A stretch of DNA of 64,000 bases. It comes from Methanobrevibacter millerae. GTDB lineage: Archaea > Methanobacteriota > Methanobacteria > Methanobacteriales > Methanobacteriaceae. The notes under the pieces were generated by a model, which searched no databases, was not told where the DNA came from, and was given only the letters and a program-made list of their open reading frames with translations. The translations under genes were made by a program, and so were the position numbers. Position 1 is the first letter of the stretch. The number at the start of each line of letters is the position of its first letter. Below are positions 1,190 to 61,744 of this stretch, piece after piece. The stretch spans positions 1 through 64,000 of the forward strand of contig SUTF01000003.1 of the NCBI GenBank assembly GCA_015063005.1. The letters are read 5' to 3'.

Positions 1190-3925
1190 ATGAAGAAAAT
1201 ATTAATAATACTGATGATTTTCATTCTTTCTCTGACTTGCGTATCAGCAAGCGATGATGTGAATGAAACTCTTGAATTATCTGATGTAAATGATGAGGTA
1301 TGTGCAGACGCAGGAACATTCACTGCACTTCAAAACAAAATCAACAATGCGCCTTCAGGCTCAACCATAAGTTTTGATAATGACTACACATACAATTATG
1401 ACTTCGACGACTTTTTATATATCGAAAAGACGTTGACGATTAACGGAAACGGCCATACGATTCACGGATTGGGTCAGACAAAAATCAACTTTCAAACATT
1501 AACCGTCAACAACCTGAACTTCGATAACTGCAACATGTGGGGAAATACATTGAGGATGAACAATTGTAATGTATATAATGGATTTTATTATCTATATCCT
1601 GAGAATGAACCGGGTTTTGTGGAAGCGGATAACATTTATCTGACAAACTGTAAATTCATCAATAATAAGGGTGATGTGGGTGCAGTCAAATCCAATAATC
1701 TGTTGATTGCAGACAACTGTGAATTCAGAAATAATTATGCATATTCAGATGGCGGTGCTGTAATTACCTGGAACAGTGATGGGAACTCACGACTAACAAA
1801 CTGTGTTTTTGAAAACAATTATGCCAATCATAGGGGAGGTGCAATCTCTGGAAACGGCTACATTTACTCATGTAAATTCATTAACAATACTTGTGATAGC
1901 AGCGGTGGAGCACTCATGCTTAATTTGGAAAGCACTGTAGAAAATTGCAGATTCATAGGCAATACTGCTTACAGCGGCGGAGCAATTTATGTGCAAAGTG
2001 ACATATGTCCTATCAGCAATTGTGAATTCATTTCAAACACTGCAGAAGGCAGTGGTGGTGCAGCAGAAGGAATAGGCATATTTACAAATTGTAATTTTGA
2101 AAACAATAAAGCTAAATATAATGGTGGTGCACTATATGAAGTGATGGAAGTAACAAAGTGTAACTTTACCAATAATTTTATCAGCAGTGATGAAGAAGAA
2201 GGCTATGGTGGTGCAATCTATGGAATTCAAAATAATATATGGGACGAATCTGATGACGAAATCATAGGTATTGAATATCCAACTAAAATAAGCAATTCTA
2301 GATTCGTTGAAAATGAGGCAAGATATGGTGGTGCAATATATCAAGGAGGATTAATCAGCAACTGTGAGTTTATAGACAACACTGCCAGTGAAGAGGGAAA
2401 TGCTATATCCAGATCAAAAACAATCCAGAACTCCATTTTCAAAAGCTCCAAAAACGAGGATGAATTCATCACAGGAACAGTTGAAATGACATTGAAAAAT
2501 AATGCAATGACATCAAACAACAACTATGACATTAAGATAACTCCTGGATTTGAAGATATGGCACCATCAATTCAATCAGAGATATATCTTGTATTTGAAA
2601 GCAAAACCGTCACTCCAAATTCCACATTCAAGATATGTGAAATACAGGATGATTCAGGAAACAGCATAATCATTGAAGATTTTGATGAAAGGCCTGTAAT
2701 CAAGGCAAAGCTAACCAACCAGCAGACCAAGGCAGTCAAAAATGTTGACATTCAAATGGATGAGGATTCAAAGGCATTTGTCTATGAATGCCATGATGAT
2801 GAGGGAACCTATGAAGCGACAGGATATGTTGAACATGAAGCAGTTGACGCCATTTCAATTAAAAAGGGCGTGCTGATTGTTGACAGCGATACCAACTACA
2901 CCCTGACTGCAAATGACCTGACCAAATATGTCGGCGGCCCTCAAAAGTTCACGGCAAGAGTTGTTAACGGCAAGGGAAGAGCCATTGCTGGAGTCAATAT
3001 AATAATCAGCATCAACGGAAGGGACTACACAAGAGTCACGGACTCTGATGGTGTGGCTTCAATGAACATCAACCTGGGTGCCGGTAAGTATTCTGCAGTG
3101 TGCAGATTCGACAATATAACCGACGATGCGACAATCAATGTAATTTCAACACTGTCCGGTAATGACTTGACCAAATACTTTAGAAATTCAAGCCAATACT
3201 ACATTAACTGTCTTGACACAAATGGAAATAAAATTGCTGACGGAATAATTGAGTTCAATATTAATGGAGTATTCTACACAAGAGATATTGTTAACGGCGT
3301 TGCACGCATGAACATCAACCTCAATCCTGGCGAATACATAATCACAGCCAAAAATTACATGAACGGTGAACAGTACTCAAACAAAATCACTGTTCTTACA
3401 ACGATTGTTGAAAACTATGATTTAGTAAAATACTACAAGAACGCTTCCCAGTATAGGGTAAGGCTCTTGGACGGTCAGGGAAAACCTGTTGGAAAAGGAG
3501 TCAGCATAGAGTTCAACATCAATGGTGTGTTCTACATAAGGACTTCTGATGAAAACGGATATGTGAATATGAACATCAACCTCAATCCTGGAACATACAT
3601 CATCACGGCCAATTACAACGGACTGATGGCATCAAACAAAATCACCGTAAAGCCTATATTGGTGTCCAAGGATTTGAAAATGACATATAGGGACGGATCC
3701 CAGTTCAACGTAACCCTTCTTGACGGTCAGGGAAAGGCTTATCCAAACCAGCCTATAACATTCAACATTAACGGCGTTTTCTACAACAGGATAACCGATG
3801 CAAACGGTATAGCTCACCTGAACATCTATCTTATGGCAGGCGAGTACATCATCACGTCCACCTATGAAAACGGTGCTGCAACCTCAAACAGAGTTACAAT
3901 CGAAGTTAAAGATCTATTTCTTTAA
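1190..3925 (+). CDS. Secreted adhesin-like protein: beta-helix plus Ig-like repeats
   Basis: 911 residues. Residues 1-20 are a signal peptide (MKKILIILMIFILSLTCVSA), so the protein is exported. Roughly residues 60-450 are short repeats built on N-x-G-G-A-I and C-x-F-x-N-N, as in right-handed parallel beta-helix (polymorphic outer-membrane-protein-like) domains. From about 570 there are four Ig-like units of about 85-95 residues, each with a core FNINGVFYxR...G...NINL.PGEYIITA. There is no C-terminal membrane anchor or sorting motif; it ends right after the last Ig unit. Known role of the family: methanogen surface adhesins. The ligand is unknown. The start is set by GGTGAT directly upstream. 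Confidence 0.85.
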   Translation: MKKILIILMIFILSLTCVSASDDVNETLELSDVNDEVCADAGTFTALQNKINNAPSGSTISFDNDYTYNYDFDDFLYIEKTLTINGNGHTIHGLGQTKINFQTLTVNNLNFDNCNMWGNTLRMNNCNVYNGFYYLYPENEPGFVEADNIYLTNCKFINNKGDVGAVKSNNLLIADNCEFRNNYAYSDGGAVITWNSDGNSRLTNCVFENNYANHRGGAISGNGYIYSCKFINNTCDSSGGALMLNLESTVENCRFIGNTAYSGGAIYVQSDICPISNCEFISNTAEGSGGAAEGIGIFTNCNFENNKAKYNGGALYEVMEVTKCNFTNNFISSDEEEGYGGAIYGIQNNIWDESDDEIIGIEYPTKISNSRFVENEARYGGAIYQGGLISNCEFIDNTASEEGNAISRSKTIQNSIFKSSKNEDEFITGTVEMTLKNNAMTSNNNYDIKITPGFEDMAPSIQSEIYLVFESKTVTPNSTFKICEIQDDSGNSIIIEDFDERPVIKAKLTNQQTKAVKNVDIQMDEDSKAFVYECHDDEGTYEATGYVEHEAVDAISIKKGVLIVDSDTNYTLTANDLTKYVGGPQKFTARVVNGKGRAIAGVNIIISINGRDYTRVTDSDGVASMNINLGAGKYSAVCRFDNITDDATINVISTLSGNDLTKYFRNSSQYYINCLDTNGNKIADGIIEFNINGVFYTRDIVNGVARMNINLNPGEYIITAKNYMNGEQYSNKITVLTTIVENYDLVKYYKNASQYRVRLLDGQGKPVGKGVSIEFNINGVFYIRTSDENGYVNMNINLNPGTYIITANYNGLMASNKITVKPILVSKDLKMTYRDGSQFNVTLLDGQGKAYPNQPITFNINGVFYNRITDANGIAHLNIYLMAGEYIITSTYENGAATSNRVTIEVKDLFL

Positions 3926-5186: not shown

Positions 5187-6170
5187 ATGAAGGACATATT
5201 TGATGAATGTGATTTTGGAGAGTTCAGGCTAAACAGCCGAATAATAAGAACCGGACTATGGGAATCACAAAAGGAGATGGGAAATCTCTCCCCTGAAATA
5301 TTTTTAAGGTATGAAAGGCTTGCCAAAAACCATGTGGGACTGATAAACACTGAACTGATTTCAATGTATCCCCACGACCGCTTCAGCGAGTATTCACATT
5401 CAATCAACAGCACAGGATTCATCAAGGAATTCAAGTATCTCACAGGCATTGTTCATCAATATGGCGTTCCTATTCTTGCCCAGTTGGGTTTCGTTAACTG
5501 CAACGTAAACGGACGTCAAAATATAGATGTCAATGACCTTACAATCGAAGATATAAGACAAATCCAGTCAGACTATATTGTAGCATCCAAAAAAATTGCC
5601 TTTGCGGATTTTGATGGAATACAGCTGAACATGGGAAACAACTACTTTTTTTCAAAAGTGATCAATCCAAAAGAGAACAAGAGAAAAGATGACTATGGCG
5701 GAAGCACAATAAACCGTTTGAGAATGATTTTGGAGCTGATAAAGGTAATCAAGGATTCAAGCGACCTTCACATAAACTGCCGTATCAATCTTGATGGAGA
5801 TTCATTGGAGGTTGCAAAGCTGCTTGAAAAGGTAGGTGCAGACAGCATTCAAATCACAAAGCCGTCCTCACCCCAGTACTTCACAAAGGATTCCGGAAAT
5901 AAAAACATACTCTTTGATGCAACCGATAAAATCGCATCTGAAATTGATATTCCTGTGATTTTAGGTGGTGGCCTGTCTGATATAGCATCAATCAACGAGC
6001 TGATTAACAGCACAAATATAGAATTCGTATCAATGCAGCGTCCGTTTGTATACAATCCTACATTTTTAAGTGAATGGAAAAGCGGCAGCGAAGTAGAATC
6101 CCTGTGCAATACCTGCAACAACTGCTATTGGAAAAAAACAAGCACATGTCATATTGTGCATGATGAATAG
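5187..6170 (+). CDS. Old-yellow-enzyme-type NADH:flavin oxidoreductase, short form
   Basis: 327 residues, an FMN-binding TIM barrel of the OYE / 2,4-dienoyl-CoA reductase group. Diagnostic stretch: INPKENKRKDDYGGSTINR, followed by the phosphate-binding VILGGGLSDI and RPFVYNPTFL. The C-terminus has a cysteine cluster, CNTCNNCYWKKTSTC, like the 4Fe-4S site that precedes the flavodoxin-like domain in 2,4-dienoyl-CoA reductase. The FAD/NAD domains of that enzyme are absent, so it must take electrons from a partner. GGTGAT sits three bases before the ATG, and the gene starts 8 bases after its upstream neighbour. Substrate unknown. Confidence 0.8.
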   Translation: MKDIFDECDFGEFRLNSRIIRTGLWESQKEMGNLSPEIFLRYERLAKNHVGLINTELISMYPHDRFSEYSHSINSTGFIKEFKYLTGIVHQYGVPILAQLGFVNCNVNGRQNIDVNDLTIEDIRQIQSDYIVASKKIAFADFDGIQLNMGNNYFFSKVINPKENKRKDDYGGSTINRLRMILELIKVIKDSSDLHINCRINLDGDSLEVAKLLEKVGADSIQITKPSSPQYFTKDSGNKNILFDATDKIASEIDIPVILGGGLSDIASINELINSTNIEFVSMQRPFVYNPTFLSEWKSGSEVESLCNTCNNCYWKKTSTCHIVHDE

Positions 6171-59089: not shown

Positions 59090-60130
59090 ATGAAATACAC
59101 TAATCTAGGAAATTCAAAATTGAACGTCAGTAAGATATGTATGGGTTGCATGGGATTTGGAGACCCTGAAAACGGAATGCATACATGGACACTGCCAGAA
59201 ATGGAATCAATAGAAATTATTACAAACGGACTGGACAATGGAATTAATTTCTTTGATACAGCAATCGGCTATCAAAACGGAACTTCAGAGCAATACCTGG
59301 GAAAGGCCATACGTGAAAATGCCAATCGTGACGACATTGTTGTTGCCACCAAATTCCTTCCTAGATCAGAGGAAGACATTAAAAACAATGTTTCAGGCCA
59401 GCAACATATTCATAACATGGTTGAAAAAAGCCTTTCAAATCTGGGGCTTGACTATATTGACCTTTACATCTATCATATGTGGGACTACAACACTCCACTA
59501 TTCGATATACTGGAAGGATTAAATGAAATTATTGAAGAGGGCAAAGTCAGGTATATCGGGATTTCAAACTGCTTTGCATGGCAGCTTGCAAAGGCAAATG
59601 CACTTGCCGAAAGCAATGATTTTTCCAAATTCGTTTCAATACAGGGACATTATAACCTGATTTTTAGGGAAGAAGAGCGTGAAATGATTCCACTTTGTCA
59701 AGCGGACAACATTGCAACCACACCATACAGTTCCCTAGCTTCAGGAAGACTATCAAGAATGCCTGGAAAAGACTCTAAAAGGATGAATGAAGACTTTTAT
59801 GCTAAACTAAAGTATCAGTCAACTGAAACGCAGGATCTTGAAATCATCAAAAGGGTCAATGAGCTTGCATTGAACTATGATGTTTCAATGACAGAGGTTT
59901 CCCTTGCTTGGCTACTTGGAAAGGTTACATCTCCAATCGTAGGAGCCACAAAGCTTCACCATGTTGAAGGAGCAGTCAATTCCGTTGAGTTGAATTTGAC
60001 CGATAAGGATTTCCAATATTTGGAAGAACCATACGTTGCTCACGATTTGGTTGGAGTCATGGCCGACAATAAGGTTTCAGCCACCGACAATGAAAAGGTC
60101 TGGGCAAAACACACAAAAGATAAAATATAA
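59090..60130 (+). CDS. Aldo/keto reductase
   Basis: 346 residues. Full catalytic set: Asp in INFFDTAIGYQNG with the Tyr of the same block, Lys in VVATKFLP, His in DLYIYHMWDYNT. NADPH-binding end: SLAWLLGKVTSPIVGATKLH. Reduces aldehydes or ketones. Last gene of the run, 22 bases after the MFS gene. Confidence 0.9.
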   Translation: MKYTNLGNSKLNVSKICMGCMGFGDPENGMHTWTLPEMESIEIITNGLDNGINFFDTAIGYQNGTSEQYLGKAIRENANRDDIVVATKFLPRSEEDIKNNVSGQQHIHNMVEKSLSNLGLDYIDLYIYHMWDYNTPLFDILEGLNEIIEEGKVRYIGISNCFAWQLAKANALAESNDFSKFVSIQGHYNLIFREEEREMIPLCQADNIATTPYSSLASGRLSRMPGKDSKRMNEDFYAKLKYQSTETQDLEIIKRVNELALNYDVSMTEVSLAWLLGKVTSPIVGATKLHHVEGAVNSVELNLTDKDFQYLEEPYVAHDLVGVMADNKVSATDNEKVWAKHTKDKI

Positions 60131-60156: not shown

Positions 60157-60183
60157 ATTTAGGCATACCTAAATATTTATATA
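60157..60183 (+). promoter_or_regulatory. DtxR/IdeR-like operator overlapping a TATA box
   Basis: ATTTAGG-cata-CCTAAAT (60157-60174) is a perfect inverted repeat of the TTAGG...CCTAA type bound by iron-dependent DtxR-family regulators. A TATA box TTTATATA (60176-60183) follows at once, so binding would block transcription. Predicted start near 60208. Confidence 0.6.
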
Positions 60184-60236
60184 TCTTAAAAACATAATAT
60201 AATATCAACAAGATTATTTACATGGGAGGTGGAATC

Positions 60237-60299
60237 TTGATTATAGGTATTGAAAACCTAAAAGAAAAACAAAAACAACAAGAAGAGGAATCAGATTAA
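60237..60299 (+). CDS. Microprotein, 20 residues
   Basis: TTG start preceded by GGAGGTG, an almost perfect Shine-Dalgarno; an ATG at 60222 in the same frame would add five residues. Sequence: MIIGIENLKEKQKQQEEESD, a short hydrophobic start and a charged helix. Own promoter with a DtxR-like operator. It may be a real small protein or an attenuator-like leader; the downstream region to 60371 holds no other gene on this strand. Confidence 0.45.
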   Translation: MIIGIENLKEKQKQQEEESD

Positions 60300-60370: not shown

Positions 60371-61744
60371 TTAAGCTTTAATATATTTTTTCCTTAACCA
60401 CATCACAAACAGCAGAATAATAGCCGTAATTAACAAAACAATAGATATCTCCATCATCGTTTCACCAGTCATGATTAATTTCAATACTGCATCATCAAAA
60501 CTGGAATCACTACCTAACATTAATCCTGCAACAACGAAATAAATGGATAAACTGATAGTTTTACCCAATTCACGATTAGTGAATAAAAATGAAGAGGAGT
60601 CTATAAAGTTTTCACTATCAATAGTCTGTCCAACCTGCTTATTATTGGAAGCCAGGAAGAATCCTTCACCTATACCTAAAACGATACAGCCTATAAATAT
60701 CTGATATATCGGAATGAAATCCATCTTAAATATGATATAACCTGCAATGATTAAAATAATACAACCCACTACAGATAAGAGTCTTAAATCATATTTAACA
60801 GTTAATTTGCCTGCAATATATGCAAAAATAATCATTACAATTGCAGCAGGTAATAAAAATAAACCTGTCATATATGAATTATAATCTAAAGCGTATTGCA
60901 AGTAGAAATTCAAAACATACATCACAATGAAAGTAGTGAAAAATACAACAAATGAAGAAAAGTTTCCAACAATATAATCGGGATTTTTCAATAATTTAAT
61001 ATTATAAAGAGGATATTCAATATTTTTTTCAAGCCAAACAAAAATAATCAGCAATACCAAACAAATAGGCAAAATATATATTCCTCCAAAATCAAGATTG
61101 GACATGAATCCTACAAACAATATCATCAAAATGGAATATATAATTGAATCCCTATAATCAATTGATATATCTTTTTTCAAGAACCATTCCTTATCCAATT
61201 TCATTAAAATAAAGAAAGCCACAATATAAAGTAGCATTAGTGAAAGGAACAATATTCTCCAGGATAGGTAATATGTAATAATCCCTGCAAACAAATAAGA
61301 AAGAGCTAAACCCACATAACCTGCGGATAAAACAATACCAATGGATTTTCCAAAATCCTCTCCAGATAGCTGCAAATATAAAATCAGATTAATGGAACAG
61401 CATATTAATGCACTTGATATTCCTTGAAAAGCCCTTCCAATGAGAAAAATTGTACTGTTTGGAGAAATAGCACAAACAATTAAACTGATTATGCCTAAAG
61501 AAATCCCAATCTTCAAAAATTTTCCAACACCATATTTAGATATGATTTTAGCTAAAGGCAATACCAGTGAAATAACCAAAACTAAATAAATCAGGCTTAC
61601 TGCATTTGTCAAATCCACATTCATGTGAAAATCTTGAGAAATACTTGGAATTGCAAGGGTTACCATATTTCCCAGAATCTGTATGCAGAAAAGCACCAGA
61701 CATCCCAGTATAATTACCAGCTTATCTTCTTTTACTTTATCCAT
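60371..61744 (-). CDS. MFS transporter (DHA2 family, 14 helices)
   Basis: 457 residues. CIQILGNMVTLAIPSISQDF and LVLPLAKIISKYGVGKFLKI (motif A), GRAFQGISSALICCSINLIL and the extra helices 13-14 mark the drug:H+ antiporter-2 group. Exports drugs or other hydrophobic compounds. Single gene. Confidence 0.87.
   Translation of the reverse strand: MDKVKEDKLVIILGCLVLFCIQILGNMVTLAIPSISQDFHMNVDLTNAVSLIYLVLVISLVLPLAKIISKYGVGKFLKIGISLGIISLIVCAISPNSTIFLIGRAFQGISSALICCSINLILYLQLSGEDFGKSIGIVLSAGYVGLALSYLFAGIITYYLSWRILFLSLMLLYIVAFFILMKLDKEWFLKKDISIDYRDSIIYSILMILFVGFMSNLDFGGIYILPICLVLLIIFVWLEKNIEYPLYNIKLLKNPDYIVGNFSSFVVFFTTFIVMYVLNFYLQYALDYNSYMTGLFLLPAAIVMIIFAYIAGKLTVKYDLRLLSVVGCIILIIAGYIIFKMDFIPIYQIFIGCIVLGIGEGFFLASNNKQVGQTIDSENFIDSSSFLFTNRELGKTISLSIYFVVAGLMLGSDSSFDDAVLKLIMTGETMMEISIVLLITAIILLFVMWLRKKYIKA

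Follow-up and report, generated by a model that had tools for sequence, protein, structure and literature searches.

A conserved 20-codon gene behind a DtxR-type operator in Methanobrevibacter: a very probable iron-regulated microprotein

Does a reading frame of only 20 codons encode a protein in Methanobrevibacter and, if so, what controls it and what might its product do? The question is raised by a locus near the end of the window, by which we mean the whole stretch of 64,000 nucleotides that was analysed; its source genome is a draft of 20 contigs, 89.5% complete. The original prediction placed a perfect palindrome beside a TATA box and a Shine-Dalgarno sequence before a TTG-initiated frame, and read the ensemble as a regulated microprotein. 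Both sets of signals were borne out at the positions given in Table 1, where the frame encodes MIIGIENLKEKQKQQEEESD, a MIIGIENLKEKQKEKEESE-like peptide.

Table 1. Coordinates of the locus, its neighbours, and copies of a putative RNA family found behind the same operator.
Feature	Position	Strand	Remark
Operator, DtxR-type (putative), perfect 7-4-7 palindrome ATTTAGGCATACCTAAAT	60157..60174	.	exact ATTTAGG-CATA-CCTAAAT
Archaeal TATA box TTTATATA	60176..60183	+	abuts operator
Shine-Dalgarno sequence GGGAGGTGG	60224..60232	+	
Microprotein gene MIIGIENLKEKQKQQEEESD	60237..60299	+	20 codons; TTG 60237-60239, TAA 60297-60299
Aldo/keto reductase	59090-60130		upstream neighbour
MFS transporter	60371-61744		next gene downstream, convergent
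Pyridine nucleotide-disulphide oxidoreductase			beyond the MFS transporter gene
RNA-family copies	L108:1830-2834	-	
RNA-family copies	L109:2850-3135	-	
RNA-family copies	L111:2932-3195	-	weaker

The exact 18-nucleotide operator pattern occurs once in the window, at this locus. When up to three mismatches are allowed, nine matches are found against 8.93 expected; the looser matches are thus at chance level and the exact palindrome alone stands out. Judging from the usual spacing of TATA boxes, transcription is expected to start near 60205-60208. An alternative in-frame ATG at 60222 would extend the frame to 25 codons. It was set aside because ATG occupies the position of the TTG in 36 of 39 copies of the gene which, together with the Shine-Dalgarno sequence just before it, makes the TTG the likely start.

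These 39 copies come from as many of the 67 genomes of the genus. A profile built from 14 peptides detected 38 of them, that of the window's genome included, at E ≤ 2.2e-5, with the next match at 0.0175. The remaining copy, the divergent MIIGIDNIKEKLKEIEEKDN of genome G024, had a profile score of just 0.126, yet both an operator and a Shine-Dalgarno sequence are present. The profile search revealed no copy in the other 28 genomes of the genus. Nor did it give a convincing homologue among 83 genomes from elsewhere in the order, where the best match (E 0.011) contains an internal stop; weak matches to 'GIENLKE' within long frames (E about 0.5-1) were taken as chance. A DNA search with the window stretch (61 genomes) returned 14 relatives (L002-L014, L019) that match from the operator into the ORF. 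All 14 encode the peptide, and all were found before any protein search; most of the remaining matches span the operator-TATA region only. Finally, a DNA pattern for the peptide had 28 matches across the genome collection, of which 25 are in Methanobrevibacter, among them a genome named M. thaueri. The three bacterial matches (L078, L095, L096) lie inside unrelated longer frames. In these the start position is occupied by CTG and the 90 nt upstream on the same strand contain no TTTAGG, so that they were dropped from the neighbourhood comparison.

Conservation of the peptide is of the kind seen in translated genes. Over codons 2-11 of the 39 copies, which were mostly gathered with a protein profile and hence by a method favouring conserved residues, pN is 0.037 and pS 0.54 (pN/pS about 0.07), an excess of synonymous over non-synonymous substitutions. 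Identity at the first, second and third codon positions is 0.915, 0.985 and 0.695, respectively, and falls to 0.36 in the upstream and 0.33 in the downstream flank (ungapped). A column-shuffle control gave no value as low as that observed, although with only seven of 200 shuffles usable (stop-free) it is a weak one. The N-terminus is nearly fixed, reading MIIGIENLK-x-K in most copies, and is followed by a variable, acidic tail, for a total length of 18-22 residues. Initiation signals are maintained as well: the start codon is ATG in 36 copies, TTG in two and GTG in one, and the Shine-Dalgarno sequence contains GGAGG in 37, GAGGTG in one and just GAGATG in another. The contrary case, in which the palindrome is conserved and the ORF is not, was looked for and did not occur. 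On this comparative basis, the 20-residue ORF is very probably a real microprotein gene under selection.

The same pattern bears on whether the product might instead be an RNA, small or dual-function, with the ORF secondary. The transcript would indeed be short and stand-alone, and the regulon seems to hold a non-coding RNA family, described below. However, the ORF is the sole conserved part of the presumed transcript; it varies at third codon positions but keeps its residues, and the 3' flanks of different genomes are unrelated. A purely RNA-based interpretation of the locus was rejected on the codon pattern and the absent 3' conservation, and we regard an RNA product with a secondary ORF as very unlikely.

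A second line of evidence for a regulated microprotein is the operator itself. In 38 of the 39 copies an exact core TTTAGGN4CCTAAA precedes the start by 60-138 nt; L067 (G016) is the sole exception. Core and TATA box adjoin except in two of the 38, L048 and L151, in which the TATA box is more distant. The protein search took no account of the operator, so the way in which the homologues were collected has no bearing on this link. Conversely, a 25-base pattern of operator plus TATA box has 93 sites in the 67 genomes and none in a reversed control, and 36 of the 93 precede the microprotein gene. We read 31 such sites in relatives (30 loci) and found the microprotein behind eight, a methyltransferase behind 14, feoB behind four, and other things behind five. 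Comparison between genomes thus establishes that the gene exists, that it is conserved and that it is linked to the operator, in support of the original prediction. The methyltransferase, among the sites read the commonest gene behind this strongest form of the promoter, carries a leucine carboxyl methyltransferase domain (L104:2379-3227, plus strand).

The surroundings of the gene are far less constant. Neighbouring proteins were compared in 29 loci, made up of the 25 Methanobrevibacter pattern matches, the window and three loci whose flanks were shorter; none of their clusters is common to more than seven. Of 30 loci assessed for downstream orientation, 28 show at least one ORF of 60 codons or more on that side within the stretch covered, and in 23 of the 28 the closest such ORF is convergent. 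Strong signals on a short ORF close to a promoter might indicate a leader peptide, acting as an attenuator of a downstream gene. No fixed co-oriented downstream gene of the kind that such a leader would serve was found in these loci, and the window's own next gene is the convergent MFS transporter. With flanking genes that vary and downstream genes that are mostly convergent, a leader role was rejected as extremely unlikely, and the varied surroundings argue for a stand-alone gene. The same independence could be expected of a secreted or signalling peptide, or of one member of a toxin-antitoxin pair, if it happened to be under iron control. By eye, however, the sequence shows neither a signal peptide nor a long hydrophobic segment, and no partner gene lies alongside in more than seven of 29 loci, so that we give this explanation hardly any credence. 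For want of a recurring neighbour, a partner gene cannot be inferred from the neighbourhood.

To what regulator might the palindrome answer? Genome-wide, the 16-nucleotide core occurs 16 times in exact form against once for the reversed control pattern. Summed over the 67 genomes, the counts are 770 and 85, and each genome exceeds its own control. With one mismatch the excess disappears (38 against 38 in the source genome). One-mismatch boxes before dtxR and a second feoB therefore rest on their position, not their rarity, and those before dtxR are credible because that position is repeated across genomes. A search for the same operator before the feo genes of this genome had been suggested as a check. 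It was positive in exact form for one feoB (start at L111:3625), which is preceded by boxes at 3180 and 3417; the second (L104, minus strand, start at 5333) has at 5479 a box with one mismatch. The exact box at L104:2379 precedes the methyltransferase, which is convergent with this second feoB. By-eye comparison of feoB matches, which number 0-3 per genome, showed no evident relation to the presence of the microprotein.

The source genome has a single full-length DtxR-family gene (G000:C18), with a one-mismatch operator and its own TATA box upstream. A near-operator with a TATA box was likewise noted at the dtxR promoter in six of ten other genomes read; none was seen in the other four (L139, L142, L144, L146). 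Many members of the DtxR family are not self-regulated, so that a box at the regulator's own gene supports membership without strictly defining it. The imperfect operator suggests that DtxR would regulate its own gene more weakly. In these near-operators one half is altered, for example to TTTTGGN4CCTAAA (L136:1784-2560, minus strand, L137, L138, L140, L141, L143, L145). Matches to the regulator, one in each genome, were found in 60 of the 67 genomes at E ≤ 1e-20. Four of the 39 carriers of the microprotein gene lack a match at this threshold (G006, G007, G023, G024); all four are drafts in which gaps are possible, but G006 is rated 99% complete. Overall, the operator very probably represents a DtxR box, with binding putative. 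Growth of Methanococcus voltae on FeS2 reportedly raises both DtxR and FeoB (PMC8516115). As in such DtxR-feoAB systems, a DtxR-type regulator and feoB here appear to share one regulon; the difference is that the strongest operator-TATA form serves the methyltransferase (14/31) and the microprotein (8/31) more often than feoB (4/31).

The original prediction left the metal as iron or manganese. The boxes of iron and manganese regulators of the DtxR family look alike, and the solved relatives that match the regulator over nearly its whole length include ScaR, named a metalloregulator; SloR and MntR match too. The promoter could accordingly answer to Mn2+, as with MntR or ScaR, and the peptide could be a manganese-economy protein like MntS of E. 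coli. Against this, the regulator carries a FeoA-like third domain (Fe_dep_repress, Fe_dep_repr_C and FeoA; Pfam PF01325, PF02742 and PF04023), its metal site, QACEMEH, has Cys where ScaR and SloR have Glu, and its operators precede feoB, the gene of an Fe2+ transporter. Cys is found at the corresponding place in DtxR and IdeR. The three domains and the metal-site Cys suggest that the regulator senses Fe(II) rather than Mn(II). The iron half of the prediction is thus the better supported, and control by manganese appears unlikely. By these criteria the microprotein is very probably iron-regulated.

The regulon seems to include a second kind of short transcript. Three tandem copies of a putative RNA family lie at G000:C7:86350-87332 (minus strand); C10 has one more, and C15 possibly another, which is weaker. 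These copies are about 265 nt long and open with the operator, then GAAA(C), then a TATA box. They contain no ORF of 55 codons or more; the C10 copy has a 39-codon frame that starts with GTG. One copy, taken as the query of a DNA search, found 63 of the 67 genomes, with 1-7 places each among the matches listed. An operator stands at the start of 33 of 35 members (the best-matching loci, with the query copy present twice). Among the matches listed, a feoB match is no more than 4.5 kb away at 40 of 126 places, which belong to 33 genomes. Four loci scanned against Rfam gave no match. One hairpin shows compensatory change at three of ten pairs (27 sequences), and the nearly invariant stretches UCUCC and UCUGCC can, by their sequence, pair with Shine-Dalgarno sequences. 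The family is multi-copy and probably non-coding, and its members look like candidate DtxR-controlled, iron-responsive small RNAs. By analogy, they are perhaps an archaeal equivalent of RyhB or IsrR.

How might the microprotein act? We consider it quite probable that this is a stand-alone, translated and selected gene in the DtxR (Fe2+) regulon; its peptide may bind one conserved partner and so tune an iron transporter or enzyme. We infer repression by DtxR, with iron as its signal, and translation in the cell. Iron-loaded DtxR would occupy the palindrome abutting the TATA box and exclude TBP and TFB from the promoter; as Fe2+ falls, DtxR would dissociate and free it. A short mRNA would then begin about 30 nt upstream of the TTG, and the strong Shine-Dalgarno sequence would allow the peptide to be made under iron starvation. 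The nearly fixed N-terminus would be the likely binding surface for a single conserved partner protein, with the variable acidic tail remaining in solution. Through such binding, which we propose by extension from what is reported for sP26, sP36 and MtrI of Methanosarcina mazei (see below), the peptide might, when iron is short, adjust the activity of an iron transporter, for example FeoB, or of an enzyme that is costly in iron. We put forward FeoB and an iron-rich enzyme as candidate partners without preference between them. More tentatively, microprotein and RNA family may both belong to an iron-sparing response induced by loss of DtxR-Fe2+, a possibility about which we remain rather doubtful. 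In that case some transporter or enzyme with a high iron cost would be retargeted or inhibited by the peptide. The RNAs, as an archaeal counterpart of RyhB or IsrR, would pair through UCUCC and UCUGCC with Shine-Dalgarno sequences and so stop iron-rich enzymes from being translated. The carriers of the microprotein are rumen and gut methanogens, in which the supply of iron to iron-sulfur and nickel-iron enzymes bears on the formation of methane. The microprotein itself is well suited to study: being very short, with nine nearly fixed N-terminal residues and a likely inducing condition, it is readily testable.

Searches of the open-licence literature found no paper containing the literal peptide core. 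Likewise, searches there on DtxR or iron in Methanobrevibacter, iron limitation of methanogens, archaeal DtxR small RNAs, and small proteins of Methanobrevibacter left the microprotein undescribed among the matches listed. The family is very probably real and, as far as this literature shows, apparently undescribed. Among small proteins of methanogens, MtrR is said to be linked to hydrogen. MntS of E. coli has 42 residues, and its regulator, MntR, is a member of the DtxR/MntR family. MntS is likewise reported to be a small protein induced by metal scarcity (PMC4361602). It differs from the microprotein in being longer, bacterial and concerned with manganese, and the two are likened by description. 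A metal-starvation microprotein is thus known as a kind; judged by the literature searched, what is new is this family, its archaeal setting and the architecture of its promoter.

Functionally characterised archaeal small proteins have been described as still limited in number (PMC10714827). In M. mazei, sP26 (23 residues) is reported to interact with glutamine synthetase, although stable binding could not be shown in vitro in later work (PMC11957540), and sP36 (61 residues) is connected with AmtB1 and GlnK1 (PMC10714827). As described there, both resemble the microprotein as small proteins of methanogens that concern one nutrient and a central protein partner, sP26 being nearly as short; they differ in that the nutrient is nitrogen, not iron, and the likeness is again one of description. 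MtrI of M. mazei, also the product of a small and previously unannotated ORF, is reported to bind the methanogenesis complex Mtr under oxygen stress (PMC12774963). It differs in its stress, in its target, the Mtr complex, and in belonging to the Methanosarcinales. In these reports, small proteins of methanogens concern nitrogen (PMC10714827, PMC11957540) or oxygen stress (PMC12774963).

Several minor observations accompany these results. Copies with longer leaders (L048, L069, L151/L158, L067) have a possible stem-loop before the Shine-Dalgarno sequence, whose folding energy in these leaders is not significant (z -0.4 to -1.7). Three of the four read MIIGIENLKAK, and L048 and L151 have the spaced operator-TATA promoter seen in the non-coding RNA family. 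One-mismatch boxes of the form TTTAGTCATACCTAAA, with an adjoining TATA-like stretch, were noted at L114:2816, L115:2864 and L116:2645. Behind them lie a small 4Fe-4S ferredoxin-like gene in L114 and, judged by eye, large and possibly surface proteins in L115 and L116. In L189 (G009), behind an operator-TATA promoter and about 137 nt after its operator, there is a short ORF, MENKAKNCTISDKKEKKSIFKKLWCFFFGCNCH, of 33 residues, four of which are Cys.
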